From positions 372,001-436,000 of the forward strand of contig NZ_LT635469.1 of the NCBI RefSeq assembly GCF_900120295.1: DNA of 64,000 bases, given 5' to 3'. Positions 17,461 to 41,748 of this stretch are shown here, in pieces. The notes below the pieces were generated by a model. That model was not told where the DNA came from, searched no databases, and saw only the letters and a list, made by a program, of their open reading frames with translations. Position 1 is the stretch's first letter; every line of letters starts with the position of its first letter. The DNA comes from Blautia sp. Marseille-P3201T. GTDB taxonomy: Bacteria > Bacillota > Clostridia > Lachnospirales > Lachnospiraceae. Both the position numbers and the translations under genes were made by a program.

Positions 17461-18114
17461 TTATATCGGTATAAAATAATTTTGGACTTCCGTTTCTGAC
17501 AATTTTATTAAGGAGCGTTCAGATACATTTTTCCCACAAATACAATACATATAATGGTCTTCTTGCCAGGTGTAAAATAATTTAGATAAATCAGGATTTA
17601 AAGAGTTGCATTGGGTTGCAGTACCAGTAAGACCGATTCTAAGCATTTTATAATAGGCTTCTTTTTGCGTCCATATTTTGTAAAATCTAAAAATTCGTTC
17701 AACATCTGAGGCATTGCTAATGTATTGAATTTCCGGTTGACTGAAAATGAGATCCATAATATCAAATGGTGGATAAGATATTTTTTCTACATCGGCTCCA
17801 ACTGGAGAATTAGCTGATATACAACTGATTATAGAACCATTTGAATGAGAAATACTGAAGTCATATTTAGGCTTAGATAAAAATAGCGGCTTGTGATTTT
17901 GAGAATATGAAAAGTATAATTCGGTATGCTTCAAACCAGATATAGTGCTTAATCCGATACGAGTAATAAGAGCAGAATAAAGAGAAAGTTTTTTGTCAAG
18001 TACATGAAAATATTGGTTTATTTTCTTTCTTCGTTCTTTGGAAACAAATTGCATTAAATCAGAATCTATATTTTTCCATTCGAGTGAAATAGTTGATAAA
18101 TACAGCACTAGCAC
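17461..18114 (-). CDS. 4'-phosphopantetheinyl transferase, Sfp type
   Basis: A 217-aa protein. I chose the GTG at 18114 because AGGGAGG lies 8 nt upstream on the minus strand. A longer frame upstream is hydrophobic and unlike the family. Motifs: FSISHSNG, PVGADVEKI (with the metal-binding Asp and Glu) and FYKIWTQKEAYYKMLRIGL (W-x-x-K-E-A-x-x-K). The enzyme moves the phosphopantetheine arm of CoA onto carrier proteins. The obvious client is the ACP at 36863-37099. Placement next to the carboxylase genes ties 17.4-21.8 kb to the polyketide pathway rather than to the peptides. Confidence 0.92.
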   Translation of the reverse strand: MLVLYLSTISLEWKNIDSDLMQFVSKERRKKINQYFHVLDKKLSLYSALITRIGLSTISGLKHTELYFSYSQNHKPLFLSKPKYDFSISHSNGSIISCISANSPVGADVEKISYPPFDIMDLIFSQPEIQYISNASDVERIFRFYKIWTQKEAYYKMLRIGLTGTATQCNSLNPDLSKLFYTWQEDHYMYCICGKNVSERSLIKLSETEVQNYFIPI

Positions 18115-18362
18115 GAGTAAATCCTCCCTAAGTATAATAATGAGCAGTTTACCATAGGAACAGAAAAATTTCAAATGCAAAATGAGCATCTTATAAGGAT
18201 ATTTCTGTGTAATAAAGACAAAAATATGCAAGTAAATCCAAAATCGTCTATAAGAATATAAAATATGCTATGTTAAAAAAAGTATAAAAGATAGCGTAAG
18301 AAAAGGGAATATTCTATCTAATAATCTTATTCTTATAACATCATGTAATATGGAGGCAAGGA

Positions 18363-18779
18363 ATGAAAACAGAAGAAATTGTACACTTATTAGAAAATGT
18401 ATACAAATATAATATATCAGAGCTTAGTATAAAAAGTGGAGATGAGAAGATTATCATCAAAAATGGCATTGATGAAAGGGCAGTTGATACTGTGGAAACT
18501 GTAACTGAAAGAATAGAGGGTGAAAGTAAAAATAGAATTGATGAAGAAAATATTATAAAATCACCCTTGGTGGGGCGTTTTTATGCAGCCCCTGCTATCG
18601 GAAGTGATAATTATGTTAAAGTGGGAGATAAAGTAGAAGAGGGGCAAACACTTGCTATTATCGAAGCAATGAAATTAATGAATGAAATTAAGAGTGAATA
18701 TAGCGGAACTATTAAAAGCATATTAGTAAAAAATGAAGAACTGGTGGAGTATGGACAGCCCTTATTTGTTTTAGTTTGA
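18363..18779 (+). CDS. accB: Acetyl-CoA carboxylase biotin carboxyl carrier protein
   Basis: A 138-aa protein behind GGAGG. The N-terminal part is a short helix-rich region, then a Pro/Ala-poor linker (about 40-65) and the biotinyl domain with EAMKLMNEI, biotin on Lys104. The carboxylase makes malonyl-CoA. It is the first gene of an accB-accC-accDA operon inside the island. Because the host surely has its own carboxylase, this set probably supplies extra malonyl-CoA for polyketide synthesis. Confidence 0.93.
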   Translation: MKTEEIVHLLENVYKYNISELSIKSGDEKIIIKNGIDERAVDTVETVTERIEGESKNRIDEENIIKSPLVGRFYAAPAIGSDNYVKVGDKVEEGQTLAIIEAMKLMNEIKSEYSGTIKSILVKNEELVEYGQPLFVLV

Positions 18780-18790
18780 AAGGAGTTTTT

Positions 18791-20131
18791 ATGTTTGAAA
18801 AAATACTTATTGCTAATAGAGGAGAAATAGCTGTACGAATTATAAAAGTATGTAAAGAGATGGGAATTAAGTCTGTAGCTATATATTCAGAGGCAGATAA
18901 AGACGCTTTACATACAAAAATGGCAGATGAGGCGATATGTATAGGACCTGCACCGTCAGGAGATAGTTATCTCAATATGGAAAATATTATTAGTGCAGCT
19001 GTAGGAACAGGAGCTCAGGCAATTCACCCAGGTTTTGGATTTTTATCAGAAAATAGTCTTTTTGCGGAAAAGTGCAAAGTATGTAATATTACATTCATTG
19101 GTCCAACACCAGAAGTGATTTGTAAAATGGGAAATAAAGTTGAAGCACGTAATATGATGAGAAATGCGGGAGTTCCGATTATATCAGGAAGCAGGACTCC
19201 CGTTTTTGATGTGTGTGAAGCAAAAAAAGTGGCATTAGAGCTTGGATTTCCAATTATGATAAAGGCAGCAGCAGGTGGTGGCGGAAAAGGTATGAGGATA
19301 TCCAATACAGAAGATGATTTTAATGAAAACTTTGTAACAGCCCAGATGGAAGCTAATAGTTCATTTAGAGATGGAACGATGTATTTAGAAAGGTATATAG
19401 AAGCGCCAAATCATATAGAATTTCAAATACTTGCAGATAAATATGGAAATGTTATACAGTTGGGAGAAAGAGATTGTTCTATTCAAAGGCATCATCAGAA
19501 AATTATTGAAGAAGCTCCTAGCCCAAAACTATCGGTAAAATTAAGAAAAGAAATGGGAAATATAGCGATCAAAGTTGCAAAAATTGTAAACTACGAAGGT
19601 GCAGGTACAGTAGAATTCTTGCTTGATAAGTTCGGAAAGTATTATTTTATTGAGATGAATACACGTATTCAAGTAGAACATGGAATTACAGAGATGATAT
19701 CTAATGTTGACATTGTTAAGGAACAGATAAAAATTGCAGCAGGCTATTCGCTTGAGTTTAAGCAAGAAAATATCTTACTGCAGGGTCATGCTATCGAATG
19801 TAGAATTAATGCGGAAAATCCGAAGATGGGTTTTGTCCCATGTCCTGGAAAAATTAATAATGTTTATTTTCCAAGTGGTAATGGTGTTCGCATTGATACT
19901 GCATTATTTAATGGTTGTAGTGTTTCACCTTTTTATGATTCTATGCTTGCAAAAATTATAGTGTATGATTCAGAACGAAAAAAGGCTATTAGAAAAATGA
20001 AAAATGTTTTAGAAAAAATAAAAATAGACGGAATTATAACTAATTTAGAATTTCAAAATGCTATTCTAAATCACCGCGATTTTGAAGAAGGGAATTTTAC
20101 AACGGACTTTATTGTAGATAAGTTTAGCTGA
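18791..20131 (+). CDS. accC: Biotin carboxylase subunit of acetyl-CoA carboxylase
   Basis: A 446-aa enzyme; ATG at 18791 follows AAAGGAG, 11 nt after the accB stop. ATP-grasp motifs are intact: GEIAVRIIK near the start, HPGFGFLSEN, KAAAGGGGKGMR as the glycine-rich loop, EAPSPKLS, EFLLDKFGKYYFIEMNTRIQ with the metal-binding Glu, and QVEHGITE (Val-Thr usual, here Gly-Ile). Length is normal for the family. It carboxylates biotin on AccB. Confidence 0.94.
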   Translation: MFEKILIANRGEIAVRIIKVCKEMGIKSVAIYSEADKDALHTKMADEAICIGPAPSGDSYLNMENIISAAVGTGAQAIHPGFGFLSENSLFAEKCKVCNITFIGPTPEVICKMGNKVEARNMMRNAGVPIISGSRTPVFDVCEAKKVALELGFPIMIKAAAGGGGKGMRISNTEDDFNENFVTAQMEANSSFRDGTMYLERYIEAPNHIEFQILADKYGNVIQLGERDCSIQRHHQKIIEEAPSPKLSVKLRKEMGNIAIKVAKIVNYEGAGTVEFLLDKFGKYYFIEMNTRIQVEHGITEMISNVDIVKEQIKIAAGYSLEFKQENILLQGHAIECRINAENPKMGFVPCPGKINNVYFPSGNGVRIDTALFNGCSVSPFYDSMLAKIIVYDSERKKAIRKMKNVLEKIKIDGIITNLEFQNAILNHRDFEEGNFTTDFIVDKFS

Positions 20132-20158: not shown

Positions 20159-21814
20159 ATGAATGACAAAGATAATCGAACAGATAGAAATAAAGAAAAT
20201 ATACCAGCAGTACCACCTGGAATGTGGATTAAGTGTACGAAATGTGGAAAATTGATTTATAGAAAAGAGTTAGAAAAAAATAAATTTATTTGTATGAAAT
20301 GTGGAAAATATTTTAGAATGCCTTCGGAAAATAGAATTTTGGATATTATAGATGAAGGATCATTTGTTGAACTGTTTACAGATGTATTGGATAAAAATCC
20401 AATTGATTTTCCAGGATATAGTGAAAAAAAAGAGATAATTAAAAAGGAAACTAATTTAGAGGAAGCTGTTATTACAGGAAAAGCGTCAATAGGGCATATA
20501 GAGGTTATGCTTGGTGTATGTGATACAAGATATCTGATGGGAAGTATGGGGTATATTGTAGGCGAGAAAATAACAAAATTATTCGAAAATGCAACCAAAG
20601 CCCAGCTACCAGTTATTATGATTAATTGTTCAGGAGGCGCACGTATGCAAGAAGGCATCATATCCTTGATGCAAATGGCAAAGACAGTAGATTCGGTAAA
20701 ACAACATTCAGATGCGGGGTTATTGTATATATCAGTTTTGACAGATCCGACAACCGGTGGGGTGGCCGCTAGTTTTGCTATGTTAGGTGATGTGATATTG
20801 GCTGAACCAAATTCATTAATTGGGTTTGCGGGTCCACGAGTAATTGAACAAACTACAAAACAGAAGTTGCCTGTAGGATTTCAAACCTCAGAATTTTTAT
20901 ATGAACATGGATTCCTTGATATGATTGTTATAAGAAGAGAATTAAAGGAACGTATCTATGAAATTCTTAAAGCTCACCAAAAGCCAAAGGTTATAGAAAG
21001 AAAACGTAAAACAATTTCTGTGTGCACTTTTTGTGATTATAAGGACAGTTGGAAAAAAGTACAATTATCAAGAAAAATAGATAGACCGACGACAGTAGAC
21101 TATATCACCCATGTATTTGAAAGATTTATAGAATTTCATGGAGACGGTGAAACCGGAGAGGATCAAGCAATAATTGGAGGTATAGCCTTTTTAGATAATA
21201 TTCCAGTTACAGTTATAGGACATCAAAAGGGAAAAACGACAGAAGAAAGAATTATTAGAAATTTCGGAATGGCACACCCTGAAGGATATAGAAAAGCAAT
21301 TCGTCTTATGAAAGAAGCGGAGAAATTTAGAAGACCAATTATAACATTTATAGATACACCTGGTGCAGCATGTGGAGTTGAGGCTGAAAAAAGAGGAGAA
21401 GCATCTGCAATAGCAAAATGTATATATGAAATGTTCAATTTAAAAGTGCCGATTTTGAGTATACTTATAGGCGAAGGTGGGAGTGGAGGAGCTTTAGGTT
21501 TAGCTGTTGCAAATGAGGTTTGGGCTATGGAAAATTCTACATATTCAATACTTTCTCCAGAAGGTTTCGCTTCTATTTTATGGAAAAATGAAAAACGTGC
21601 AAAAGAGGCAGCAAACCTTATGAAAATGACGGCAAAAGATTTATTAGATTTAGGAGTGATTGAGAAAATATTACCAGAAGGGAATGGAGCATCAGAGTTC
21701 AAAGTAATTACAGATTTTCTACAAGTTCAAATTCTTGATTTTATATATAATATGTCCCTTAAAAATGAAGATGAAATAGTGGCTTCAAGAGAAACAAGAT
21801 TTAGAAGTTTTTAG
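20159..21814 (+). CDS. Fused acetyl-CoA carboxyltransferase (AccD-AccA)
   Basis: A 551-aa protein joining both carboxyltransferase subunits. Residues 1-275 are AccD-like: a C4 zinc ribbon at C26, C29, C45 and C48, then the crotonase-type core with NCSGGARMQEG and PTTGGVAASFAMLGD. From about 300 on it is AccA-like: HQKGKTTEERIIRNFGMAHPEGYRKA, FIDTPGAACG and GEGGSGGALGLAVAN. A second C-x2-C (VCTFC) sits in the joint near residue 288. In most bacteria the two are separate chains; fusion fixes a 1:1 ratio. It overlaps no neighbour and ends at a hairpin shared with the convergent repressor gene. Confidence 0.92.
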   Translation: MNDKDNRTDRNKENIPAVPPGMWIKCTKCGKLIYRKELEKNKFICMKCGKYFRMPSENRILDIIDEGSFVELFTDVLDKNPIDFPGYSEKKEIIKKETNLEEAVITGKASIGHIEVMLGVCDTRYLMGSMGYIVGEKITKLFENATKAQLPVIMINCSGGARMQEGIISLMQMAKTVDSVKQHSDAGLLYISVLTDPTTGGVAASFAMLGDVILAEPNSLIGFAGPRVIEQTTKQKLPVGFQTSEFLYEHGFLDMIVIRRELKERIYEILKAHQKPKVIERKRKTISVCTFCDYKDSWKKVQLSRKIDRPTTVDYITHVFERFIEFHGDGETGEDQAIIGGIAFLDNIPVTVIGHQKGKTTEERIIRNFGMAHPEGYRKAIRLMKEAEKFRRPIITFIDTPGAACGVEAEKRGEASAIAKCIYEMFNLKVPILSILIGEGGSGGALGLAVANEVWAMENSTYSILSPEGFASILWKNEKRAKEAANLMKMTAKDLLDLGVIEKILPEGNGASEFKVITDFLQVQILDFIYNMSLKNEDEIVASRETRFRSF

Positions 21815-21860: not shown

Positions 21861-22208
21861 TTATTTTAAGTTGCGATTATGTAAAGAGATAAGTGTATTT
21901 TTTACTAGGTCATGTATAAAGCATATTTCTTTAGTTGAACAGTTTTTTAAAAGTAGAGAAATTTCTGTTTCATATACATTTGATGCTTGATTAATGCAGT
22001 CACATAATAATTCATCGGCAGATACATCAAGAGCATTTGCAATAGAAATAAAGGTTGTTAAACTTAGTTTGGTACAGCCTGTTTCAATATGCGAAATGTG
22101 TGTTGTTCCAACATCTGCTTTTTCTGCCAAAGCTTCTTGGGTAAGATTCTGGGATAGGCGTTTTTCACGAATACGTTTACCTAGGTTTACAAAATTGTTA
22201 TCTTTCAT
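21861..22208 (-). CDS. XRE-family transcriptional regulator
   Basis: A 115-aa protein. The ATG at 22208 follows GGAGG on the minus strand. Residues 10-65 form a Cro/C1-type helix-turn-helix (LTQEALAEKADVGTTHISHIETG), followed by LTTFISIANALDVSADELL. The C-terminal helical tail may mediate dimerisation. Divergent from the Agr-type two-component genes, it probably regulates itself and them. Confidence 0.88.
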   Translation of the reverse strand: MKDNNFVNLGKRIREKRLSQNLTQEALAEKADVGTTHISHIETGCTKLSLTTFISIANALDVSADELLCDCINQASNVYETEISLLLKNCSTKEICFIHDLVKNTLISLHNRNLK

Positions 22209-22446
22209 AATTGCACCTCCATGATTATATGTGTATTGTATGTGCAACCAAAATATTTCTTAATAACCTATATGTGCATATAGACTAAATAATGATAGTT
22301 TTAAGATGTTTAGAGAGTGTATGAAATAAAGCACATGGAATATATATTATTTAATCGGATTGCACTAATAAGATATGTAAACTATTTGGTAGAATCGCTA
22401 AAATCATGTTCACAGAAAGAAAAAAAATAAGGCAGAGGTGATAAAT

Positions 22447-23187
22447 ATGCCAAGAATAGCAATTGTAGATGATCAGGAAGAGTATTTAGAAGAAATTTGT
22501 AATTTAATAGAGAAGTTTTATTTTAAAAATGGAATTCCATACGTTGTGAATACTTTTTCAAATGCACAGTTGTTACTATACGAAATGGAAGAAAAATTGT
22601 ATTTTGATATTTATCTATTAGATATTGAAATGCCTGGGATAAACGGACTATCTTTAGCTGAAAAAATACGTTCTATGGATGATGCAGGATATATTGTGTT
22701 TATCACGTCACATTTAAAATTTTTAATAAATGGATATGATTATTTTGCATATCAGTTTATCCCTAAAAATAATTTGAAAAAGAAGTTGATATCGACATTA
22801 GAATCATTACAAAAAAGGCTGGATATTGAAGAAGAAAAGTTTTATCAAATATGTACTAATCATAGATATGAGAAAATTTTATATAAGGATATCTATTATG
22901 TGTATAAAGATGAAAAATATGCGATTTTTGTTACCCAAAACGGAAATATACCTATACGAGAAACCTTGAAGAACATTTATAAAGATTTAGAACAAAAAGA
23001 ATTTATTTTTATAGATAGAGGATACATTGTTAATGTCGTACACATTATGAGTTTATATAAAAATACTATTTACTTGCGTAATAGTAAAAATCTTAAAATT
23101 AGTAGAACATATACTGAAGAGGTAAAAAAGAGAATTCACACTTATTGGAAGGAACACACAACAAATGGAAGAGATATACATACTTAA
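22447..23187 (+). CDS. LytTR-family response regulator (AgrA/ComE-like)
   Basis: A 246-aa protein; ATG at 22447 follows GAGGTGA. Receiver domain at residues 1-120 with the acidic pair DDQ near the start, the phospho-acceptor in YLLDIEMPG and a Lys in FIPKNN. The C-terminal LytTR domain covers about 140-240. This family usually regulates bacteriocin or quorum-sensing loci. Its stop overlaps the kinase start by 23 nt. Likely regulates the lanthipeptide promoter at 24498. Confidence 0.92.
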   Translation: MPRIAIVDDQEEYLEEICNLIEKFYFKNGIPYVVNTFSNAQLLLYEMEEKLYFDIYLLDIEMPGINGLSLAEKIRSMDDAGYIVFITSHLKFLINGYDYFAYQFIPKNNLKKKLISTLESLQKRLDIEEEKFYQICTNHRYEKILYKDIYYVYKDEKYAIFVTQNGNIPIRETLKNIYKDLEQKEFIFIDRGYIVNVVHIMSLYKNTIYLRNSKNLKISRTYTEEVKKRIHTYWKEHTTNGRDIHT

Positions 23188-24466
23188 TGTACTCCAATAT
23201 TTACTAGGATATTTTGAGATTTATATGTGTTTTGAGATACTCCGAAAAGTTTATAAAAAGGAAAATACAAAGATAAAACAATGTTTTGAAATATTGATTT
23301 GTATAAGTTTGGCAGTAATAGAAGCTATTAATCGTAGCTTTCGATTATATTCTATTTTATTAATTGCTGTTGTTATAATCGTAATAAGTATAACGTTCTC
23401 ATTGATTTATAAAATCAAATTACGATATACATTGCTTCATACCTCATTGTATTGTTTGAGTTTAGAATTATTAGATCTATTTATCATATTCACAATGGGA
23501 ATAGTGTTACATAAAGAGGATTTGGGGATTATTATAGGAAGACGAAACAGTATATCCAGAATATTGGCATTGTTTTTGGGAAGAGCTTTAATGTTTCTAA
23601 TTTCCTTAGCCATAGTGAGGTATAAAGAACTTATAGATAAAAACCGCATAGGATCACTCGTGTTGATTTTGTTATCGGAAATTATCGGAGTTATATATTT
23701 TCAATCAGTGTATGCAGGCGATTCTATTCCTGATTTAGCAAAAGGATATTATATGTATTTCGTTATCATTATTTTAGCGATAATGTTTTTTGCTATATAT
23801 TCGATTTATAGAAGTGCGTTGGAAGAAAGTAAAATTATTAAATTGAGAAATCGAATGTTGGAACGTAATTATGAAGATCTTAAAGTATATTATAATGATT
23901 CTCGAACTTTATTTCATGATTATAGAGCCCATATTACTTTGCTGCAAAAATATTTGGAAGAAAATCAAATAGATAAAGCCTGTTTATATCTCAATAGTAT
24001 TAATAAACCACTTGCGGAATTGGAAAAGAAAATTTATACAGGAAATGCAGTTATTGATCTGGTAATGAATTATAAATTATCAGAACTAAAAGAAAAGAAT
24101 ATTAAAATAGAATATGATATTATGCCAATCGATTTTGGCAACTACCATTTTGAAGAAAGTGATATATTTGTTATTTTATACAACTTGTTCGATAATGCTA
24201 TAGAAGCTTGTGAAAATATCTACACAAGAGAAAAATGGATTTATTTATCATTAAGGCTTATTAATAATATGTTTATGCTTTGTATACAAAACAGCTACGA
24301 AATCGAGCCTAAATACGAAAATGGAGAACTTTTAACTATAAAAACAGATAAGCATTTTCATGGAATTGGTATGAAGAGTGTGAAGAAAATTGTTGAAAAA
24401 TATGAAGGACAGTTAGAATATGATAATAAGCAAAATATATTTGAAGTTAGCATAACCCTTTTTTGA
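23165..24466 (+). CDS. AgrC-like sensor histidine kinase
   Basis: A 433-aa protein. About six to seven membrane segments fill residues 5-215, then a cytoplasmic coil. The H-box is LFHDYRAHITLL, the N-box NLFDNAIEACE and the G-box HGIGMKSVKKIVEKY, typical of GHKL kinases of the AgrC/ComD type. No AgrB/AgrD pair is nearby, so the signal may be the mature lanthipeptide or a peptide from elsewhere. Operonic with the LytTR regulator. Confidence 0.92.
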   Translation: MEEIYILNVLQYLLGYFEIYMCFEILRKVYKKENTKIKQCFEILICISLAVIEAINRSFRLYSILLIAVVIIVISITFSLIYKIKLRYTLLHTSLYCLSLELLDLFIIFTMGIVLHKEDLGIIIGRRNSISRILALFLGRALMFLISLAIVRYKELIDKNRIGSLVLILLSEIIGVIYFQSVYAGDSIPDLAKGYYMYFVIIILAIMFFAIYSIYRSALEESKIIKLRNRMLERNYEDLKVYYNDSRTLFHDYRAHITLLQKYLEENQIDKACLYLNSINKPLAELEKKIYTGNAVIDLVMNYKLSELKEKNIKIEYDIMPIDFGNYHFEESDIFVILYNLFDNAIEACENIYTREKWIYLSLRLINNMFMLCIQNSYEIEPKYENGELLTIKTDKHFHGIGMKSVKKIVEKYEGQLEYDNKQNIFEVSITLF

Positions 24467-24550: not shown

Positions 24551-24712
24551 ATGAAAACATGTTCAGAAAGAAATGAGCAGCGGATAAATAGTTTACAATT
24601 ATCAGAAAGTTTGGAAGACGAAATAAAGGAACTTGATGGAAAGAATGTAGAAGCAGGAGATGTTATTTTTACTACAGATACATCTTCATTTCTTACAATA
24701 GTTTGCTGCTAA
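24551..24712 (+). CDS. Class II lanthipeptide precursor (LanA-like)
   Basis: A 53-aa peptide behind AGGAGGAG. An acidic leader (residues 1 to about 36, with LSESLEDEIKELDGKNVEAG) ends in Ala-Gly and is followed by a core reading DVIFTTDTSSFLTIVCC. The core offers Thr and Ser at six positions (41, 42, 44, 45, 46, 49) and two C-terminal Cys (52, 53) for lanthionine rings. The double Cys at the end recalls the lacticin 481 group. A single Cys at position 4 of the leader is unusual. LanM at 25958 is the likely modifying enzyme. No second precursor is seen. Confidence 0.8.
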   Translation: MKTCSERNEQRINSLQLSESLEDEIKELDGKNVEAGDVIFTTDTSSFLTIVCC

Positions 24713-24741: not shown

Positions 24742-25068
24742 ATGGAAAATGAATTTACCGGTTTTAATTGTTTTATGGAAGAAAGTAGCGAAGTAGGTAA
24801 GGCATATATTGACATGATTTTGCAGCAGGAAAAGGCAAGTGCATTGGATAATAAAACACGTGAATTAGCGTATATTGCAGTGCTTGCAGCTACAGGAATT
24901 ATGGGTGGTTTGCTTTATCATGTACAATCTGCTAAAAAGTTAGGCGCAAGTCGTGATGAGGTAAAGAGTGCAATACTGGTGGGATTACCGGCTGTCGGAT
25001 TGACCATTATTGATCCGTTGGAAGCCGCTCTTAAAGCCTTTGACGGAAAATCAGACCAAATCCTTTGA
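24742..25068 (+). CDS. Carboxymuconolactone decarboxylase (CMD/AhpD) family protein
   Basis: A 108-aa all-helical protein behind AAAGGAG, 29 nt after the precursor. It has the CMD-family pattern (LDNKTRELAYIAVLAATG, then HVQSAKKLGASRDEVKSAILVGLPAVG). The C-x2-C redox pair of AhpD is absent; the only Cys is at position 10. Its role in a lanthipeptide locus is unknown: it could be a folding or binding partner, or a redox protein. It shares a transcript with the precursor up to the terminator at 25074. Confidence 0.8.
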   Translation: MENEFTGFNCFMEESSEVGKAYIDMILQQEKASALDNKTRELAYIAVLAATGIMGGLLYHVQSAKKLGASRDEVKSAILVGLPAVGLTIIDPLEAALKAFDGKSDQIL

Positions 25069-25298: not shown

Positions 25299-25823
25299 TT
25301 AAAAGACGTTTGGTAAAGTGGCAATCCAATTTTCAATTGCTTGGACTAATATAAGTTGCTGTTGTAGAACGGCCATACCTGCAGTTGGAATTTCAGGTTT
25401 TTGCTCTTTGGAATTAATATTATCTTCTAAATATGCTTTCAGTATTTCAATGTTATTTTTTATATCAGAAAGGCATTTTTTTTGCTTATCAGGAGAAAGA
25501 TTATTTATATTTACTATTACTGCATTAAAATCCAGAAAGATGTGAATTGGTTTAGAAGAAATATCAAGCATTAACTTCTCAAATTCTTTCTCCCCTGTAT
25601 CTGTTAAAGTATAAATAGCCTTTTCTGGCATTTTTCCTTCTTTAATCGTAGTTCCTTTTATAAGGCCTTTTTCCTCTAATTGAAGAACTTTTTTATATAT
25701 AGAAGGGGTACTAATTTTTACCCATTTGGATATATTACGATATTCTACAAGTTTTTGAATATCATAAGCGCTTAAAGCTGATGTCTTTAACATACCTAAT
25801 ACAATTAAATCAATGGTTGCCAT
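25299..25823 (-). CDS. PadR-family transcriptional regulator
   Basis: A 174-aa protein with GGAGG at the start. The N-terminal winged helix (residues 1-80: VLGMLKTSALSAYDIQKLV, STPSIYKKVLQLEEKGLI, YTLTDTGEKEFEKLM) is PadR type; the helical C-terminal part dimerises. Divergent from LanM. Three copies of an ACTATA-N3-TATAGT palindrome lie before LanM and before the MATE gene, so it probably represses both and itself, with a small ligand or transporter substrate as inducer (inference). Confidence 0.9.
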   Translation of the reverse strand: MATIDLIVLGMLKTSALSAYDIQKLVEYRNISKWVKISTPSIYKKVLQLEEKGLIKGTTIKEGKMPEKAIYTLTDTGEKEFEKLMLDISSKPIHIFLDFNAVIVNINNLSPDKQKKCLSDIKNNIEILKAYLEDNINSKEQKPEIPTAGMAVLQQQLILVQAIENWIATLPNVF

Positions 25824-33226: not shown

Positions 33227-33304
33227 ACATAGAGTAAAACGCTTGCATCTATCATTTTGGTGCAAGCGTGATTCATGGGCAGCGTAGCAATATTTTGCGC
33301 TTAC

Positions 33305-33812: not shown

Positions 33813-35012
33813 ATGTCTAAAGTATTATTTTTGAATATTCCTTCACATGGGCATATAAACCCAACATTAGGTTTGGTGGAAGGATTAGTGAAACAGGGAG
33901 ACGAAGTTTTATATTTTACTACAGAAGAGTTTAGAAAGAAAGTAGAAAGTATGGGAGCAACATTTATAAGTTATGGCTCAAAATCTGATTTTTTTGTTCC
34001 TAAAAATAAGAAACCAGGAAAATCAATTCTTGACGATTTGTTAAATAGAATAGATGAGGTGCTGAATAGAGCTGATATTATCGAATATATTTTAAAACAA
34101 ATTCAAGGAATGAAATTTGACTATATTATCTATGGCTCAATGTTTCCATACGGAAATGTAATATCTCAGATATTAAAAATCCCGGCTATCTCTTCTTTTG
34201 CTGTATTTGCGAAACCAAAAGTTTTTATGGAAAAAGGAAATGAAGAGTTTATAAAAAATCATAAAGCTACAGGAACATATCAGAGACTCTATATGAAATT
34301 AGAAACTTTATATGGGGTACAGATGCCCCCAATGTTAGATCTGTTTTTTAATAAAGGGGAATTAAATATTGCATATACATCTGAATTATTTGTTTCTAAC
34401 ATAAAAGAAGAATATGATGATAGTTTTCTTTTTATCGGTCCACCAGTTTATGATAGAAAAGAAAAAATTGAATTTCCATTTGAGAAAATAAACGGTAGAA
34501 AAGTAATATATATTTCTTTGGGGACAGTATTTAATAGTATTGACACCGAACTGTATGAAACATTTTTTAAAGCATTTTCTGACTATGACGGGATAGTCAT
34601 AATGAGTGCGTTTAAAATGGACATATCAAAATTTCATATACCAGAGAACTTTATTGTACAAAATTATGTGCCACAGTCAGAAATACTTAAATATGTGGAG
34701 GGGGCAATAACTCATGGAGGAATGAATAGCACAAGTGATTTAATATATAATAATGTACCATTTGTGACAATTCCCATAGGCGCTGATCAAAGATATATTG
34801 CTAGTAGAGTTTCAGAGCTAGGAGCTACTATTTGTTTAAATAAAGATAATATATCGCCCCAATTACTATCGGACTCCATGAAAAGAGTAATTACGGAAAG
34901 AAAATATAGAGAAGCGGTAGAAAAAATTTCTATTTCTTTTAAAGATGCAGGAGGATATAAAAAGGCATTAATGGAGATAAGTAAATTTAAAATTTTACAT
35001 AGTATAGAATAA
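33813..35012 (+). CDS. Glycosyltransferase, UGT/MGT (GT1) family
   Basis: A 399-aa enzyme. The start at 33813 (MSKVLFLNIPSHGHINP) follows AAGAGG and gives the usual GT1 N-terminus. The C-terminal donor-binding region reads AITHGGMNSTSDLIYNNVPFV and PIGADQRYIASRV, as in macrolide and antibiotic glycosyltransferases. It would attach a sugar to the polyketide. No sugar-nucleotide biosynthesis genes are in the island segment seen, so a host sugar donor is likely. First gene of the second polyketide operon. Confidence 0.92.
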   Translation: MSKVLFLNIPSHGHINPTLGLVEGLVKQGDEVLYFTTEEFRKKVESMGATFISYGSKSDFFVPKNKKPGKSILDDLLNRIDEVLNRADIIEYILKQIQGMKFDYIIYGSMFPYGNVISQILKIPAISSFAVFAKPKVFMEKGNEEFIKNHKATGTYQRLYMKLETLYGVQMPPMLDLFFNKGELNIAYTSELFVSNIKEEYDDSFLFIGPPVYDRKEKIEFPFEKINGRKVIYISLGTVFNSIDTELYETFFKAFSDYDGIVIMSAFKMDISKFHIPENFIVQNYVPQSEILKYVEGAITHGGMNSTSDLIYNNVPFVTIPIGADQRYIASRVSELGATICLNKDNISPQLLSDSMKRVITERKYREAVEKISISFKDAGGYKKALMEISKFKILHSIE

Positions 35013-35031
35013 ATAAGGTAAGGTGTTACGT

Positions 35032-35985
35032 ATGCAAAAATTCTCAGAAGATCTTACAATGGCGCATGAATACTACAGGGAACAGGATTATAAAAATTGT
35101 TTAAAAGTATATGATATATTGTTTCATAAAGGAGAGCAGCTTTCAATAAGTGAGCTAAAAGAATACGCAATTTCTCTGCAAAAGAATATGAGATATTTTG
35201 AGAGCATTGAAATAGCAAGAAAAATTTTGGATAAAAAAAGAGTAGATATAGATATATTTTTAAACATGTGCATTTGCTTAGGAAAAATTGGAAAATATCC
35301 TGATGCGCTTGAGTATTATAATAAAATCTTGAAAATAAATAAAAATTATAATATTCAGATTGGCTATTATGCATATTTGTTAGGACAAGTGGGAAAAAAC
35401 GAAATGGCAGATTTTTATTATAAAATTGCTATTGATATAGAGCCAGATAATGCATGGTATATAAGTCATTACGCTTTTTTTCTTCAAAAAATAAAAGAGT
35501 ATAGTTGGTCAGAGTATTATTATAAAATAGCGCTAAACAAAGATAAAAATAACAGTTGGCTATCAAAACGTTACGCATATTTTCTTAAAGAATTAAAAGG
35601 AAAAGAAAAAGCGTATTCCTATTATGAGCAGTTGTTTTGCGAGAATCCTTATAATTATAACTATTATATAAATGCAGCAGAATTAGCATTTATATCAAAT
35701 GATATAGAAGAATCTTTAAGGTATCTGGAAAAGGCAAACTCCATTAATAAACCTAAAGTTATGGAAATTATACTTCGATTTTATTGGGCAATATATTATA
35801 TTTTGTCTGATGATTTGGAAGAATTCGAGAAAGAAACATTAGCACTAAAAGCTTTGCGCAGACAATATACAGGGTTTATTCATAGAGATTTGACAGATCT
35901 CAGTTTTTATATTTCAAACAATCTGAATGAGATTAAAAAACAAAAATATGAATATATTTCTAGTATTTTGTATAAGGGGGAATAG
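35032..35985 (+). CDS. TPR-repeat protein
   Basis: A 317-aa protein; ATG at 35032 follows AAGGTAAGG. It is built from repeated TPR-like helix pairs (for example PDALEYYNKILKINKNY, MADFYYKIAIDIEPDN, WSEYYYKIALNKDKNN). No signal peptide and no enzyme domain. It could hold polyketide enzymes together or belong to regulation; nothing in the sequence decides this. It sits tightly between the glycosyltransferase and the cyclase, so it belongs to the same operon. Confidence 0.8.
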   Translation: MQKFSEDLTMAHEYYREQDYKNCLKVYDILFHKGEQLSISELKEYAISLQKNMRYFESIEIARKILDKKRVDIDIFLNMCICLGKIGKYPDALEYYNKILKINKNYNIQIGYYAYLLGQVGKNEMADFYYKIAIDIEPDNAWYISHYAFFLQKIKEYSWSEYYYKIALNKDKNNSWLSKRYAYFLKELKGKEKAYSYYEQLFCENPYNYNYYINAAELAFISNDIEESLRYLEKANSINKPKVMEIILRFYWAIYYILSDDLEEFEKETLALKALRRQYTGFIHRDLTDLSFYISNNLNEIKKQKYEYISSILYKGE

Positions 35986-35989
35986 CAGT

Positions 35990-36811
35990 ATGAAAATAAT
36001 AGATCTTAGTTTTAATGTTGAGCCAAATCTTTCTGAACCTATGTCAATCAAAATAAAAACAAGACCACATTCAGGGGGCTCTAAATTTGGAAGAAAAATA
36101 ATATTTATGGGAAAACGTAGTTTGAAAGATAAGGCAATGGCAGTGATTCATTATATGTCAGGGAAAGAACGTATAACTAAAAAAAGCTTTCCTGATCAAG
36201 AGTTTATCAACGAACAAAGGATTTCATTGTCTGTTCATACAGGAACACATTTAGATGCTCCTTCACATTTTGGAACAAAATGTGAAGGAAAAAGACCTAA
36301 AACAATAGATGAAATACCATTGGAATGGTGTTATGGAAATGGAGTTGTATTGAATTTTTGCAATAAAGGTCCATGTGAAGAGATTAGTGTTGAAGATGTA
36401 AAAAAGGAGTTAGAAAGAATTGAATATTGCCTTCAAGAAAACGATATTGTTCTGATAAGAACAGATACGGATAAAAAGTGGGGTAAGCCAAATTATTTTT
36501 ATGAAGCTCCTGGCATGTCAAGAGAAGCAACAAAATTTTTAGTTGAAAGTGGTGTGAAAATAATAGGTATAGATTGTTATTCATTAGATAAACCATTCAT
36601 GGCTATGGTAAAGCAGTATTATAGAACGAATGACAAAAAATGCTTATGGCCAGCTCATTTTTATGGACGAGAAAAAGAATATTGCCATATTGAAAGGCTT
36701 ACAAACTTAGATAAGATCCCAATGAATTATGGGTTTAAGTTTTGTTGTTTCCCTATTAAATTAAAAGAAATGGGAGCTGCATGGGTTAGAGCGGTAGCTA
36801 TTATTGAATAG
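35990..36811 (+). CDS. Metal-dependent cyclase/hydrolase (PF04199 type)
   Basis: A 273-aa protein; the ATG at 35990 follows AAGGGGGAA. The metal-binding motif H-x-G-T-H-x-D-x-P-x-H is present (SVHTGTHLDAPSHF), and EAPGMSREATKFLVESGVKIIGID follows as in kynurenine-formamidase-like enzymes. Members occur in aromatic polyketide clusters as putative cyclases. Here it probably takes part in ring closure or product release. A small hairpin (TTTAACTGA/TCAGTTAAA, 36817-36838) lies between this gene and the ACP gene and may adjust their relative expression. Confidence 0.85.
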   Translation: MKIIDLSFNVEPNLSEPMSIKIKTRPHSGGSKFGRKIIFMGKRSLKDKAMAVIHYMSGKERITKKSFPDQEFINEQRISLSVHTGTHLDAPSHFGTKCEGKRPKTIDEIPLEWCYGNGVVLNFCNKGPCEEISVEDVKKELERIEYCLQENDIVLIRTDTDKKWGKPNYFYEAPGMSREATKFLVESGVKIIGIDCYSLDKPFMAMVKQYYRTNDKKCLWPAHFYGREKEYCHIERLTNLDKIPMNYGFKFCCFPIKLKEMGAAWVRAVAIIE

Positions 36812-36862: not shown

Positions 36863-37099
36863 ATGGAACAAAAAATTTACGAAATTTTAAAAGAGAGGTT
36901 TGGTATTGAAGACACAATTAACTCAGATACAGATTTAGTTAATCAATTGGGATTTGAGTCTATTTCATTAGTAGAGTTAGCAAGTGTCTTATCAAAGGAA
37001 ACTGGCGTTAAAGTTACTCATAGTCAAGCAATAAAATGGACGACAGTTAAATCTATTCTGTCAACACTTGCTACAAATAGTAAAGATAACAATGCATAA
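36863..37099 (+). CDS. Acyl carrier protein
   Basis: A 78-aa acidic helical protein behind TGGAGG. The phosphopantetheine site is Ser33 in LGFESISLVEL, with Glu in place of the more usual Asp before the Ser. Length is right for a discrete ACP of a type II synthase. It should carry the growing polyketide chain. Likely activated by the PPTase at 17461. Confidence 0.92.
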   Translation: MEQKIYEILKERFGIEDTINSDTDLVNQLGFESISLVELASVLSKETGVKVTHSQAIKWTTVKSILSTLATNSKDNNA

Positions 37100-37110: not shown

Positions 37111-37587
37111 ATGGGATATACAGTTAATTCTATCATAATAAAAAAAGAGATAAACGAACTGTTCGAGATTATTAATGATGTTAGAAATTGGCCGGAATTA
37201 CATAACTATCAAGATGTAAAAATACTTGAAAAAAAGAAATTGCTAGATGGAAGGAGAAAGATTGTTTTTCAAGTTACGGGGAATAAAGAAGAGGAACCGG
37301 TTGAAATTTGGACATCTCAGAGAATTATAGATGTTACTAATATGTGTGCACGAGGGGTAAGACTAGAGCCTATGTACCCATTTAGACATTGGATACTTGA
37401 TGTTGTTTTATCAGTAGAAAAAGAAGGAACAAAAATGACTTGGATACAGGACTTTAGTATGGATAAAAATTCAGGATTTACTGAAGAGGCTGTTGAAGAA
37501 ATGATTAATAAAGGCAGTAAGAAAGAACTTCAAATTTTTAAGGAAAAAATTGAGAGTGGCATAGTTAGCAGCAAGACAGAATTATAA
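37111..37587 (+). CDS. SRPBCC-fold polyketide cyclase/aromatase
   Basis: A 158-aa protein behind AAGGAG. The pattern (VRNWPELHNYQDVKILEKK, then RHWILDVVLSVEKEGTKMTWIQDF) is typical of the START/Bet v1-like polyketide cyclase family that includes TcmN-type aromatases. It would fold the poly-beta-ketone and set the first aromatic ring. It is one of two SRPBCC proteins in the cluster. Confidence 0.85.
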   Translation: MGYTVNSIIIKKEINELFEIINDVRNWPELHNYQDVKILEKKKLLDGRRKIVFQVTGNKEEEPVEIWTSQRIIDVTNMCARGVRLEPMYPFRHWILDVVLSVEKEGTKMTWIQDFSMDKNSGFTEEAVEEMINKGSKKELQIFKEKIESGIVSSKTEL

Positions 37588-37702: not shown

Positions 37703-38959
37703 ATGAGAAGAGTTGTCGTAACGGGGATAGGACTAATTACGCCTATAGGCATAGGAAAAGAAGAATTCTGGAAAAATAATAAAGAAGGAAAAAGTGGTAT
37801 ATGCGATATGCCAGAACTGGAAAAATTCGGTTTTGAATCTAAGGCTTACGGTTATGTGAAAAATTTTAAGCCAGAGCAATTAGGATTAACATTACGTGAA
37901 ATTAGAAGAATGGATAGGATTACTCAATTTGGAGTTTTATGTACAGATCAAGCTGTTAAAGATTCAAAAATAGATTTATCTAAAATAGACAAAAATAGAG
38001 TAGGCGTTAATATTGCAAATGCAGTAGCAGGCACAAAATTCATGGATGAAGAATTTTCAGTTTTAACCAATAATGGAAAAGAGGTGGTAAATCCGGAAGA
38101 TATATCACCTTATGCATATGCACGCTCTATGCCTAATACAACTTCAAATGAAGTATCATATCGTTATGGTTTTAATGGAACCTGTTGTACAATGGCAACA
38201 GGATGTACAACAGGAATTGATTCTATAGGATTTGCGTATGATCAAATACGGTGTGGGGAATTGGACGTAATGATATGCGGAGCGGCTGAGGCTCCAATAA
38301 CGCCTATAACTATTGCTGCCTTTGAAGCAATAGGAACACTTTCTACAAATAATAATCCGCCAGAAAAGGCCTCCAGACCTTTTGATGATACAAGAAATGG
38401 ATTTGTTTTAGCGGAAGCAGCAGGGATATTAGTTTTAGAAGAACTTGGACATGCTTTAAATAGAGGTGCACATATCTACGGAGAAATTGCGGGATATGGT
38501 TCAGTAAATAATGCCATGCATATGACAGGTTTGAAGCCAGATGGTGAGGATTTATCAAGAGCAATAAAAATTGCAATAGAGGAAGCTAATATCACACCAT
38601 TTGAGATTGATTATATCAATGCTCATGGTAGTGGAACCAAACAAAATGATATAAATGAAACAGGCGCCTATAAAAAAGTATTTGGTGAGCTGGCCTATAA
38701 AATACCGATGAGTAGTACAAAATCAATGACAGGTCACCCTCTTGGTGCGGCTAGTGCAGTAGAAGCAATTGTTTGTTGTCTGGCATTGGAAAATAATTTT
38801 ATGCCACCTACAATTAATTATAACAAGAAAGATGCACTATGTGATTTGGATTATATACCCAATTGTGGAAGAGAAAAAAATTTAAATGTTGTTTTAACAA
38901 ATGCCAGTGGATTCGGTGGACTTCATGCAGCCATGATTTTAAAGAAATATATAGACTAA
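37703..38959 (+). CDS. Type II polyketide ketosynthase alpha (KS-alpha)
   Basis: A 418-aa condensing enzyme behind AAGGAG. The catalytic Cys168 sits in ATGCTTGIDSIG, close to the type II polyketide signature G-C-T-S-G-L-D rather than that of FabF. His308 (NAHGSGT) and His345 (SMTGHPLGAAS) complete the triad. It is followed by a homologue lacking these residues, as in all aromatic type II synthases. It would join malonyl units on the ACP. No ketoreductase is seen nearby. Confidence 0.94.
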   Translation: MRRVVVTGIGLITPIGIGKEEFWKNNKEGKSGICDMPELEKFGFESKAYGYVKNFKPEQLGLTLREIRRMDRITQFGVLCTDQAVKDSKIDLSKIDKNRVGVNIANAVAGTKFMDEEFSVLTNNGKEVVNPEDISPYAYARSMPNTTSNEVSYRYGFNGTCCTMATGCTTGIDSIGFAYDQIRCGELDVMICGAAEAPITPITIAAFEAIGTLSTNNNPPEKASRPFDDTRNGFVLAEAAGILVLEELGHALNRGAHIYGEIAGYGSVNNAMHMTGLKPDGEDLSRAIKIAIEEANITPFEIDYINAHGSGTKQNDINETGAYKKVFGELAYKIPMSSTKSMTGHPLGAASAVEAIVCCLALENNFMPPTINYNKKDALCDLDYIPNCGREKNLNVVLTNASGFGGLHAAMILKKYID

Positions 38960-38997: not shown

Positions 38998-40236
38998 ATG
39001 AATAGACGAAGAGTTGTCATAACAGGATTGGGAGTGATTTCACCATCAGGAAATGATGTGGAAACATTTTGGGAATCGTTAAAACAAGGTAAATCAAGTA
39101 TAGGCCCAATTACGAAATTTGATACAAGCGATTTTGATGTAAAAATTGCTGGGGAAGTAAAAAATTTTGACATTAAGAAATATGGATTTCCATTTATGCT
39201 TACTAGGCAATTAGATGAATTTACACATTATGCTATGGCTGCAACAAAGATGGCTTTAGACGATTCTATGATAAATCTTGAAATGGTTGATAGAACCAGA
39301 ATGGGGGTTTTTGCAGGCAATTGTCTTGGAGGAGTTGGGTTTGGTGAGAAAGAATTGTATAATTTATATAGAGAAGGTTGGCAGTGTGTAAGTCCCTATC
39401 AGTCTATTTCATGGTTCTATACTGCACCACAAGGACAAATCTCAATTTTTTACAAATTAAAAGGTTATAGTAAAACTTTTGTAGCAGATAGAATAAGTTC
39501 TGATGTTGCACTGGGGTATGCATATCAATCGATTATGTTGAATCGTTTAGATACTTGTTTGGTTTGCGGCACAGAGGCTGGAGTATTTCCATACGGAATG
39601 TCACTGTTTTCAAGTAGTGATGTTTTATCAAAAAAACGAGATGCTTGTTATTGTCCATATGATTTAAAAAGAAATGGAATGATTCTTGGGGAGGGGGCAG
39701 GTACCTTAGTAATTGAGGAATTAGAACACGCATTAAAGCGCAATGCGCCAATATACGGTGAAATTCTTTCCTTTAGTAATAATTGTGATGGGGTTCATCA
39801 TAAAGAAAAAAATAAAAATGGAAAAAAATATAAAGAGGTAATAGAATCTTGCATTAGAAAAGCAAATATATCGTATGATGAAATTGATTATATTAATTTA
39901 GATGGTGCTGCTCTATGGGAAGATGATGTCATTGAAACAAATGTATTAAAGGAAATTTGGGGAAAAGAAATTGGTACAGTATCTTTAAGCTGTCCTAAAT
40001 CAATGTTTGGAAACACTTTTGGGGCTGCTGGAGCATTAGATGCAATTATTAATTGTTTGGCAATCAAAAATAACACAGTACCTCCCACAATAAATTATGA
40101 GGATCAGGATTCAAATTGTGATTTGAATTATACACCTAATAAAGCTTTGCATAGAAATATCAATACAGTATTACAAATTGCAAGGGGGAGAGGGGGAATT
40201 AATAGTGCTATGCTCCTTCGTGAATTTAAAGAATAG
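38998..40236 (+). CDS. Chain-length factor (KS-beta)
   Basis: A 412-aa KS homologue behind AAAAGGAG, 38 nt after KS-alpha. Every catalytic residue is replaced: Arg165 at the Cys position (VADRISSDVALGYA), Asp302 in NLDGAAL instead of NAHGSG, and Asn339 in SMFGNTFGAAG instead of GHP. This is the hallmark of KS-beta, which pairs with KS-alpha and sets chain length. In most actinobacterial chain-length factors the Cys is replaced by Gln; Arg here is unusual. Confidence 0.92.
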   Translation: MNRRRVVITGLGVISPSGNDVETFWESLKQGKSSIGPITKFDTSDFDVKIAGEVKNFDIKKYGFPFMLTRQLDEFTHYAMAATKMALDDSMINLEMVDRTRMGVFAGNCLGGVGFGEKELYNLYREGWQCVSPYQSISWFYTAPQGQISIFYKLKGYSKTFVADRISSDVALGYAYQSIMLNRLDTCLVCGTEAGVFPYGMSLFSSSDVLSKKRDACYCPYDLKRNGMILGEGAGTLVIEELEHALKRNAPIYGEILSFSNNCDGVHHKEKNKNGKKYKEVIESCIRKANISYDEIDYINLDGAALWEDDVIETNVLKEIWGKEIGTVSLSCPKSMFGNTFGAAGALDAIINCLAIKNNTVPPTINYEDQDSNCDLNYTPNKALHRNINTVLQIARGRGGINSAMLLREFKE

Positions 40237-40275: not shown

Positions 40276-40719
40276 GTGCCTGTAATAAAAAAGGAGATAA
40301 TTTTAAAAGGTACAACAAAAGAGATATTTAAAAGAATGTCTGAGTATAGCTTTATTCAAGAAATGAATTCGTCTGCAAATGTATGTACAAAAATTATTTT
40401 TAAAAAACCAAGAATCATCAGATATGGTATAGAAGTAAAGAATGTTGGGTATTGGGAATCTGAAAGGGTATTTATACCAGAAAAAAATGTAATTATTACA
40501 CAGCGTAAAGAACCGATGGGACCATTTAAATATTTAGTTGTTATCTATGTTTTAGAAAAAGATAATCAGGGAACAAAATTTACATATATTGAAGAATTTG
40601 ACGTATGTGATAATTATCAAAATGAAGTAGAAAAAATTTATTCCGACATTTCAAAAAAAGTAAATCCCATTTTACAAAAGATCACAGATTATTTTAATTC
40701 GGAACATATTTTGCAATAA
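40276..40719 (+). CDS. Second SRPBCC-fold cyclase-like protein
   Basis: A 147-aa protein starting at GTG with AAAGAGG 9 nt upstream. The fold pattern is the same as at 37111 but sequence is distant (KEIFKRMSEYSFIQEMN, then GTKFTYIEEFDV). Likely a second-ring cyclase or a binding protein for the intermediate. A strong hairpin follows. Confidence 0.78.
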   Translation: MPVIKKEIILKGTTKEIFKRMSEYSFIQEMNSSANVCTKIIFKKPRIIRYGIEVKNVGYWESERVFIPEKNVIITQRKEPMGPFKYLVVIYVLEKDNQGTKFTYIEEFDVCDNYQNEVEKIYSDISKKVNPILQKITDYFNSEHILQ

Positions 40720-40756
40720 GTACTATTGATAAGAGGGATTGGTAAATATGGAATAA

Positions 40757-40799
40757 TAAAAACTCTTGTATTGTAGATGAAGCAATACGAGAGTTTTTA
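40757..40799. terminator. Strong hairpin inside the polyketide operon
   Basis: TAAAAACTCTTGTATTG (40757-40773) and CAATACGAGAGTTTTTA (40783-40799) form a 17-bp stem with one G-T pair and a 9-nt loop, ending in a T-run on both strands. It lies before the malonyl transferase gene, so that gene is either attenuated or has its own promoter. Confidence 0.75.
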
Positions 40800-40824
40800 T
40801 ACATAAGAGTATAGGAGGTTCGTT

Positions 40825-41748
40825 ATGGCAAAAAATATTGCATTTGTTTTTCCGGGACAAGGTGCACAATATTCTGGTATGGGAAAAGATTTTTATAATC
40901 AATATGAAAAAGCAAAACAAATTTATGATTATGCATCTGAAATTTGTAATATAGATGTAAAAAAAATCTGTTTTGATAGTTCTGACAGTAGAATTCATGA
41001 AACAAAATATACACAAATTGCAATTTTTACTACGTCATTAGCAATTTTAGAATGTGTACATGAAATGGGTGTCACTTCAACTGTTAATGCTGGGTTAAGC
41101 TTAGGTGAGTATACTGCATTGGCAGCATCAAATGTGATTGATATAAAAGACTTATTTTTATTAGTCAAAAAAAGAGGAAAATATATGCAAGAGGCTTTCC
41201 CGACAGGCGGTGCAATGGCTGCGGTTATTGGCCTTTCTGAAAGAGAGGTGGTGGCAATTTGTAATCAGATGAATGGTAATATATACATTGCTAATTATAA
41301 TTGTCCCGGACAAATAGTCGTAACAGGGGAAAAGGCTATAGTGGAAGCATCGTATGAAATATTTCAAAAAAAAGGAGCAAAGATGGTTTTACCGTTAAAT
41401 GTTAGTGGACCATTTCATTCGCCATTATTAGAAACGGCTAAAAAGAAACTTGAAATTAGTTTGAAAGATGTACAAATTAATAATTTTATCATTCCCTATG
41501 TATCAAATGTTAATGCAAAATATATTAATTATAGTTGTGATATTAAATCATTACTTTCTGAGCAAATTGTTTCTTCTGTGAAATGGCAACAGAGTATAAA
41601 AGAAATGATAAGACAGGGGGTAGATTTGTTTATTGAAGTAGGTCCGGGATCAACATTGACAAATTTGATTAGAAAAATTGACCCTGGCGTAGAAGTGCTA
41701 AATATTCAAGCTGTGGGAGATATGAAAACTTTGTTGAAAGTTAATTGA
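40825..41748 (+). CDS. fabD: Malonyl-CoA:ACP transacylase
   Basis: A 307-aa enzyme behind AGGAGG. GQGAQYSGMG near the start, nucleophile Ser92 in GLSLGEYTAL, and His198 in SGPFHSPLL. It loads malonyl groups on the ACP. A dedicated copy in a type II polyketide cluster is unusual, because most clusters borrow the host enzyme. Together with the carboxylase genes at 18363-21814 it makes the island self-sufficient for malonyl-ACP. Confidence 0.94.
   Translation: MAKNIAFVFPGQGAQYSGMGKDFYNQYEKAKQIYDYASEICNIDVKKICFDSSDSRIHETKYTQIAIFTTSLAILECVHEMGVTSTVNAGLSLGEYTALAASNVIDIKDLFLLVKKRGKYMQEAFPTGGAMAAVIGLSEREVVAICNQMNGNIYIANYNCPGQIVVTGEKAIVEASYEIFQKKGAKMVLPLNVSGPFHSPLLETAKKKLEISLKDVQINNFIIPYVSNVNAKYINYSCDIKSLLSEQIVSSVKWQQSIKEMIRQGVDLFIEVGPGSTLTNLIRKIDPGVEVLNIQAVGDMKTLLKVN

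Follow-up and report, generated by a model that had tools for sequence, protein, structure and literature searches.

The stretch of DNA analysed here, called the window below, is a 64,000-nucleotide segment of the genome of Blautia sp. Marseille-P3201T (contig NZ_LT635469.1, positions 372,001 to 436,000; genome of 2.94 Mb in 10 contigs). It contains the genes of a type II polyketide synthase (PKS), with a ketosynthase alpha (KS-alpha), a chain-length factor (CLF), an acyl carrier protein (ACP) and cyclases. An earlier note on this DNA had described a self-contained PKS cluster at 17461-41748, and the genes that it named there, KS-alpha, CLF, ACP, three cyclase-type proteins, a glycosyltransferase, a phosphopantetheinyl transferase (PPTase), a carboxylase and a malonyl-CoA:ACP transacylase (MCAT), are all present as open reading frames (ORFs). 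Its interpretation as a whole is partly supported: the PKS set is there, but lanthipeptide genes and an IS66 insertion within the interval had been overlooked, and the unit shared with a second genome is wider, at about 16607-42118, ending after a winged-helix gene. The gene content, taken from ORFs and from Pfam and NCBIfam profile scans of the main island ORFs, is as follows.

16329-16658, plus strand: OmpR-type orphan winged-helix regulator, upstream copy (Trans_reg_C 6.5e-16; 74% amino-acid identity to 41788-42117)
16721-17200, plus strand: small protein inside the shared unit, without Pfam match (91% DNA identity to Lachnospiraceae bacterium 3-1)
17461-18231, minus strand: Sfp-type PPTase (ACPS 1.5e-14)
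18363-18779, plus strand: AccB, biotin carboxyl carrier protein (Biotin_lipoyl 4.5e-23)
18776-20131, plus strand: AccC, biotin carboxylase (CPSase_L_D2 3.2e-74)
20159-21814, plus strand: AccDA, fused carboxyltransferase (ACCA 2.5e-107, plus zinc finger)
21861-22247, minus strand: XRE-type regulator (HTH_3 6e-15; ORF found in Lachnospiraceae bacterium 3-1 too)
22438-23187, plus strand: LytTR response regulator (Pfam scan)
23165-24466, plus strand: GHKL histidine kinase (HATPase_c_5 7.7e-24)
24551-24712, plus strand: candidate class II lanthipeptide precursor (LanA) of 53 residues (preceded by an AGGAGG ribosome-binding site; end rich in Thr/Ser, with two Cys)
24742-25068, plus strand: carboxymuconolactone decarboxylase (CMD)/AhpD-like protein (CMD 8e-12)
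25299-25823, minus strand: PadR regulator (Pfam scan)
25958-28924, plus strand: LanM, class II lanthionine synthetase (TIGR03897, 570 bits; cut-off 304)
29027-30424, plus strand: MATE efflux transporter (MatE 1.3e-43; TIGR00797, 194 bits)
30559-33304, plus strand: IS66 insertion (IS66 genes; 8-bp duplication and inverted ends)
33654-35012, plus strand: MGT-type glycosyltransferase (TIGR01426, 391 bits; cut-off 260)
35023-35985, plus strand: TPR protein (Pfam scan)
35927-36811, plus strand: Cyc1, PF04199 cyclase-family protein (5.8e-36)
36863-37099, plus strand: ACP, with the Ser in GFES (PP-binding 4.9e-11, and sequence)
37111-37587, plus strand: Cyc2, TcmN/WhiE-type aromatase/cyclase of the SRPBCC family (Polyketide_cyc2 4.6e-5, slightly below its cut-off)
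37703-38959, plus strand: KS-alpha with Cys-His-His (Pfam 3.6e-51)
38998-40236, plus strand: CLF (Pfam 3.4e-39)
40276-40719, plus strand: Cyc3, second SRPBCC-like protein, of predicted aromatase/cyclase fold
40825-41748, plus strand: MCAT (TIGR00128, 306 bits; cut-off 261)
41788-42117, plus strand: orphan winged-helix regulator, downstream copy (similarity to the sister copy stops just past it)

All genes from the glycosyltransferase through the downstream regulator lie on the same strand. The real starts of the PPTase (about 18114), the glycosyltransferase (about 33813) and Cyc1 (35990) probably lie inside the longest ORF, judging from homologues; the PPTase counterpart in Lachnospiraceae bacterium 3-1 is an ORF of 217 residues. 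The other KS, MCAT, AccDA-family and PPTase-family matches of the genome are clustered on contig C10 at 163-175 kb. The AccDA family (PF03255) has a stronger match there than the island's, plus a third, weak one, and the remaining genome matches to PF01648 (PPTase) and PF00698 (MCAT) are on C10 as well. Thus the island genes are second copies, and the claim that the cluster brings its own carboxylase, malonyl transferase and PPTase is confirmed.

The locus is best explained as an intact, horizontally moving type II PKS cluster of the non-reducing aromatic kind, to which we assign, from its sequence, a probability of roughly 0.85. In alignment, KS-alpha retains the catalytic Cys and both His, whereas the paired CLF lacks the active Cys, as is characteristic of type II systems, and reads Arg in its place, with Asp and Asn for the two His, and a discrete ACP with a phosphopantetheine Ser is likewise what an aromatic system of this type has. 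An LG+C20 tree of 88 KS rows groups the window KS-alpha with Streptomyces aromatic KS-alpha (27 rows, support 100/99) and the window CLF with CLFs from Streptomyces and elsewhere (26 rows, 100/99), while 35 rows of FabF or other genome KSs form a separate set (99/95). The tree took 16 of 70 pairs with the Cys motif, omitted the truncated S. haemolyticus CLF and lost loci L146 and L154, which were without a central ORF. The phylogeny therefore supports the pair as an aromatic type II PKS, and the placement among fatty acid synthases that the earlier note had named as fatal to its identification was not obtained.

The cyclases point in the same direction. A profile built from Cyc2 and 31 other rows, Cyc3 included, matches the WhiE ORFVI structure 3tl1 (1.2e-38) and TcmN (2.2e-38), with far weaker matches to ZhuI (5e-4) and BexL (6e-4), so that by this profile Cyc2 is an aromatase/cyclase of the same type as those of Streptomyces tetracenomycin (TcmN) and spore-pigment (WhiE) synthesis. 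Cyc3 has no Pfam or NCBIfam match and is predicted to be a second protein of aromatase fold: its AlphaFold model (pLDDT 93) finds TcmN as the top Foldseek match (E 3.9e-9, TM 0.81) and WhiE next, but the alignment behind the model held 27 Cyc2-type rows, and the model may therefore be drawn toward that fold. Cyc1 is similar to isatin hydrolase and kynurenine formamidase; its role in this cluster we infer. TcmN and WhiE belong to the non-reducing aromatase/cyclases, and a Cyc2 of this type agrees with the fact that no ketoreductase (KR) was found, as had been claimed before. Specifically, when the main island ORFs were scanned with Pfam (the rest of the genome was not searched for KR), no short-chain dehydrogenase/reductase (SDR) and no ketoreductase, dehydratase (DH), oxygenase or methyltransferase match appeared, the lack of the last two setting the island apart from the TcmN and WhiE systems, of which the cyclase alone was compared. 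Together, the Cyc2 type and the missing SDR would place the cluster in the non-reducing subclass, following the division of aromatase/cyclases into reducing and non-reducing kinds in the part of a review drawn on here (PMC5321127).

Several observations weigh against this assignment, and some of them favour instead the possibility that KS-alpha and CLF stem from a duplicated fatty-acid synthase set for a modified lipid. The FabF-like model TIGR03150 scores KS-alpha at 468 and CLF at 364 bits, both below the cut-off of 494, and KS-alpha is above the cut-off of NF005589. The top PDB match of KS-alpha is Listeria FabF (373 bits), which leads actinorhodin KS-alpha (368) by 5 bits, with an AntD-type KS at 367; the top PDB matches of CLF are FabFs (285 bits) versus 183 bits for actinorhodin CLF, and CLF by itself is equally near FabF (up to 40%) and Firmicute CLFs (31-37%). 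Moreover, fab operons typically have carboxylase and MCAT genes too. In the tree, both window proteins are long lone branches, the nearest fork of CLF is weak (77/89), and the program flags long branches and uneven letter composition in some rows. Beyond the pair itself, no self-resistance gene was recognised in the unit, and the sequence fixes neither starter nor chain length. On the other hand, the tree sets both proteins apart from FabF, all three catalytic residues are replaced in CLF, no FabG-, FabZ- or enoyl-reductase-like match is found in the main island ORFs, and a TcmN-type cyclase adjoins the KS pair. A fatty-acid duplication was thus rejected on the KS tree and appears very improbable.

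An aryl-polyene type cluster was also considered. In other Lachnospiraceae (L154, L157), KS pairs lie next to SDR- and FabZ-like ORFs, as judged by eye, and perhaps these are aryl-polyene-like. The KS rows of those genomes that entered the tree (L154 not included) fall outside the aromatic groups, and neither KR nor DH was found in the island scans, on which grounds an aryl-polyene origin of the window cluster was rejected and strikes us as close to negligible. The extra KS copies of 12 other genomes were considered as aromatic synthases as well and discarded, since those in the tree lie outside the aromatic groups; neighbouring ORFs of some of these copies resemble SDR and FabZ when judged by eye.

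For a non-reducing aromatic PKS, the best prediction of the product from these genes is an unreduced, possibly glycosylated aromatic polyketide, a member of the class to which tetracyclines and anthracyclines belong. Malonyl units would be joined into an unreduced poly-beta-ketone, which the TcmN-like Cyc2 would fold, aromatising the first ring or rings, while Cyc1 and Cyc3 may act in later cyclisation or release. A sugar would then be added by the glycosyltransferase, an MGT-type enzyme related to YjiC (PDB 10zg 2.4e-80, YjiC 2.3e-51), and the product could be exported by the MATE or a neighbouring transporter. An acetate starter is assumed here, as is an antibiotic or signalling role. The length of the chain may be hinted at by the CLF gate, whose sites we take to be F109, T112 and F116 of actinorhodin CLF, assuming a chain offset of 8. 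At these positions, the window CLF has Val, Gly and Leu. Of 76 related CLFs, 67 read Trp-Ala-Leu there and 9 read Trp-Gly-Leu, four CLFs from Firmicute plasmids have Trp-Cys/Ser-Phe, and one from Streptomyces has Phe-Gly-Leu. Since the window residues are smaller, a chain beyond C16 may fit, which hints weakly at a polyketide longer than C16.

The island character of the cluster, likewise proposed before, is borne out by comparison with Lachnospiraceae bacterium 3-1 (genome of 5.1 Mb), since window positions from about 16607 to 42118 are collinear with its scaffold KE159573.1, with the same genes in the same order. DNA identity is 97.3-99.8% for the glycosyltransferase-to-MCAT genes and 98.2-100% from CMD to MATE. 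The two-component genes reach 96-98%, the last regulator 93%, and the genes for carboxylase and PPTase 91-94%. By comparison, rpoB of the two hosts shows 76% DNA and 85% protein identity. At the fab locus, DNA identity is about 68% (72-82% in shorter pieces), and the FabF proteins are 75% identical. A unit near-identical between genomes so diverged at rpoB and the fab locus points to recent transfer between distinct Lachnospiraceae lineages. Its GC content, 30.6% without IS66, compares with 35% and 39% in the window flanks and 35-42% in six other stretches of the genome. As regards possible contamination of one draft, individual genes of the two copies are 0-9% apart, and each copy has insertions of its own.

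On the right, high similarity ends at 42118, directly past the stop codon of the regulator, and different sequence follows; a 151-bp match of 76% at window position 43982 adjoins the end of the unit in Lachnospiraceae bacterium 3-1, so the right flanks are not entirely unrelated. On the left, similarity reaches into the final bases of the upstream regulator copy, an edge that is less certain because an assembly gap in Lachnospiraceae bacterium 3-1 starts about 90 bases off. The two orphan winged-helix copies, 74% identical, thus stand one at each end of the PKS unit. Weak ABC ATPase-like and HisKA-only small proteins (15196-16658) adjoin the upstream one. To the right of the unit, three successive large serine recombinases and a short resolvase-like protein occupy 45805-51796. 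Further to the left, the stretch 42-14757 encodes FtsX-type and other ABC transporters, two radical SAM proteins (one with SPASM) and an S8 subtilase, and looks like a radical-SAM peptide cluster.

It is possible that the unit is decaying or silent, as IS66 lies between transporter and biosynthetic genes. This insertion (30559-33304), flanked by its 8-bp duplication, is missing from the copy in Lachnospiraceae bacterium 3-1, which in turn has two insertions with IS110-like ORFs and two assembly gaps. However, the window ORFs are open, the insertions in both copies appear intergenic, and the core proteins show few amino-acid differences between the hosts (one in KS-alpha, four in CLF, one each in Cyc1 and Cyc2), so that decay or silence is unlikely, and an intact cluster remains the preferred explanation.

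The lanthipeptide genes within the unit deserve separate consideration. LanM, with dehydratase and LanC-like domains, is a class II lanthipeptide enzyme; it carries WCHG and CHG motifs, which we take to have a zinc role. The candidate LanA follows an AGGAGG site and has about 40 leader-like residues before a TTDTSSFLTIVCC end, a core with Ser/Thr and Cys that was judged by eye; it is identical in Lachnospiraceae bacterium 3-1, has no meaningful family match in the profile scans and gives only three chance matches (E 1 to 5) among plasmids. The set of candidate LanA and LanM sits behind the GHKL/LytTR pair. A LanT-type C39 peptidase does not appear to accompany it, the whole genome having no PF03412 match at E 0.001. 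Most likely, these genes encode a separate peptide that travels with the PKS unit. A more adventurous scenario is a hybrid, in which one mobile unit would couple the two pathways, the non-reducing type II polyketide being linked to the class II lanthipeptide or undergoing maturation together with it. Indeed, the CMD-family gene, of a kind known in Firmicute polyketide clusters (its product shares 35% identity with the Priestia PKS cluster's CMD protein), starts 29 bp past the candidate LanA ORF, both hosts retain precursor and LanM beside the PKS, and a LanT-type C39 peptidase has no match in the genome. On the other hand, no acyltransferase or ligase able to join peptide and polyketide was recognised, and the precedent, lipolanthines in which a polyketide or fatty acid (a long acyl chain) is joined to a lanthipeptide, uses class III enzymes according to the portion of PMC10435860 consulted, whereas the window LanM is class II. 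We regard such a hybrid as doubtful. On plasmid p3 of Lactobacillus gasseri (L040, 1075-14822), a circular bacteriocin gene likewise lies near a type II PKS cluster, another pairing of peptide and polyketide.

How widespread is this system? The claim that such clusters are rare in Firmicutes holds for relatives in the searches made of family, order and genus. Cyc2 has a match in 1 of 397 genomes of the family (E 1e-4) and CLF in 1 of 20 genomes of the genus (1e-80). In the order, CLF matches 303 of 392 genomes (1e-50), the best outside its own genome at 311 bits and 40% identity, which is in the FabF range, so that a distant CLF could hide there. A wider scan of 84,980 species' genomes used two CLF motifs and confirmed 240 loci, of which the best 80 include one close relative, that of Lachnospiraceae bacterium 3-1. 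The other 79 are by title Candidatus Omnitrophota (68), Nitrospirae (2), Deltaproteobacteria (2), Planctomycetales (2) and unplaced (5), with no Firmicute title among them. A phage-borne copy was sought as well and set aside, since 15 stretches of viral contigs with exact 8-residue CLF patterns, which catch close relatives only, held no relative.

Blautia wexlerae, presumably of the same bacterial family as the window's host, raises the possibility that this is its wexrubicin cluster or a close relative. Anthracycline pathways usually include a KR. The parts of the papers used here describe wexrubicin as a type II polyketide made by B. wexlerae (PMC11747023, PMC8549736) and call it an anthracycline (PMC11747023), whereas the main island ORFs gave no KR match. 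Furthermore, the best 80 of the 240 loci include no close relative besides Lachnospiraceae bacterium 3-1. This is indirect evidence against a near relative in Blautia, provided that such a relative would carry at least one of the two CLF motifs and belong to a genome in the scanned set, and we therefore think a wexrubicin-type cluster improbable. A Blautia KS/CLF pair is listed for expression in the part of PMC6638757 consulted. No published account of the window cluster itself was found in a literature searched thinly in subscription journals.

The next closest CLFs among these best loci are 39-46% identical to that of the window, and the adjoining KS-alpha 47-54% where full length. KS-alpha and CLF occur in all 79 other loci, a Cyc1 relative in 70, a Cyc2 relative in 64 and all four in 64; 59 loci have them within 10 kb, arranged as KS-alpha, CLF, Cyc1, Cyc2 (some contigs stop too early to show all). 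Full-length KS-alpha/CLF pairs came from 76 of the 79. The active-site column of the CLF rows (n=84) reads R in 65, K in 16, S in 2 and Q in 1, and 6 of 84 KS-alpha rows have no Cys there, probably because CLF was picked where a contig end cuts KS-alpha. In Omnitrophota-type loci, Cyc1 and Cyc2 come after CLF, whereas in the window both precede KS-alpha, and in the two such loci examined MFS, SDR, B12 radical SAM and amidohydrolase genes are close by. When the interval from CLF to Cyc1 in the related loci was searched for ACPs with a regex, a poor motif, none was found; a 77-residue ORF is present there in L055. The core of KS-alpha, CLF, PF04199 and SRPBCC proteins in Candidatus Omnitrophota and a few other metagenome-assembled genomes would seem to constitute a widespread aromatic polyketide pathway. 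A literature search on such a pathway in Omnitrophota found nothing, and no mention of 'type II' was found in the Cariaco Basin paper.

Firmicute plasmids offer a second comparison. Clusters in Priestia megaterium, Lactobacillus gasseri, Staphylococcus saccharolyticus and Apilactobacillus kunkeei (pPKS) share KS-alpha, CLF, a PF04199-type cyclase and an SRPBCC protein with the window, have a small ACP-like gene too and in some cases CMD or PPTase, but carry AMP-ligase and methyltransferase genes, with a cupin annotated in three. Their KS-alpha are 39-45% identical to that of the window and form their own clade in the KS tree. A cluster in S. haemolyticus is shortened, and the stretch around an Enterococcus faecium PF04199 gene, also considered, is without annotated PKS genes. 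The best plasmid match to the window KS-alpha is a Streptomyces KS (48%), from clusters annotated with CLF, ACP, FabG and aromatase/cyclase. Genes similar to SpoU/TrmH-type rRNA methylases adjoin the PKS genes of Priestia (L037, 10036-11226) and S. saccharolyticus (L042, 2616-3383), where they possibly confer self-resistance. The A. kunkeei plasmid encodes a putative polyketide antibiotic according to the portion of PMC9648514 consulted.

The window cluster appears distinct in sequence from the systems compared, within a class of system already known. In the portions of the literature cited here, strict anaerobes have yielded few aromatic polyketides, the examples being clostrubin (Clostridium) and wexrubicin (Blautia wexlerae), both type II polyketides of anaerobic Clostridia (PMC11747023, PMC8549736, PMC8222398, PMC5686105). 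A cluster that has no oxygenase match, is apparently non-reducing, seems to have moved recently and is compact enough for expression is thus of interest in its own right. Given that the closest outside relatives of its KS lineage are found in uncultured Omnitrophota and others, it is appealing to propose that its product may reveal what those loci make.

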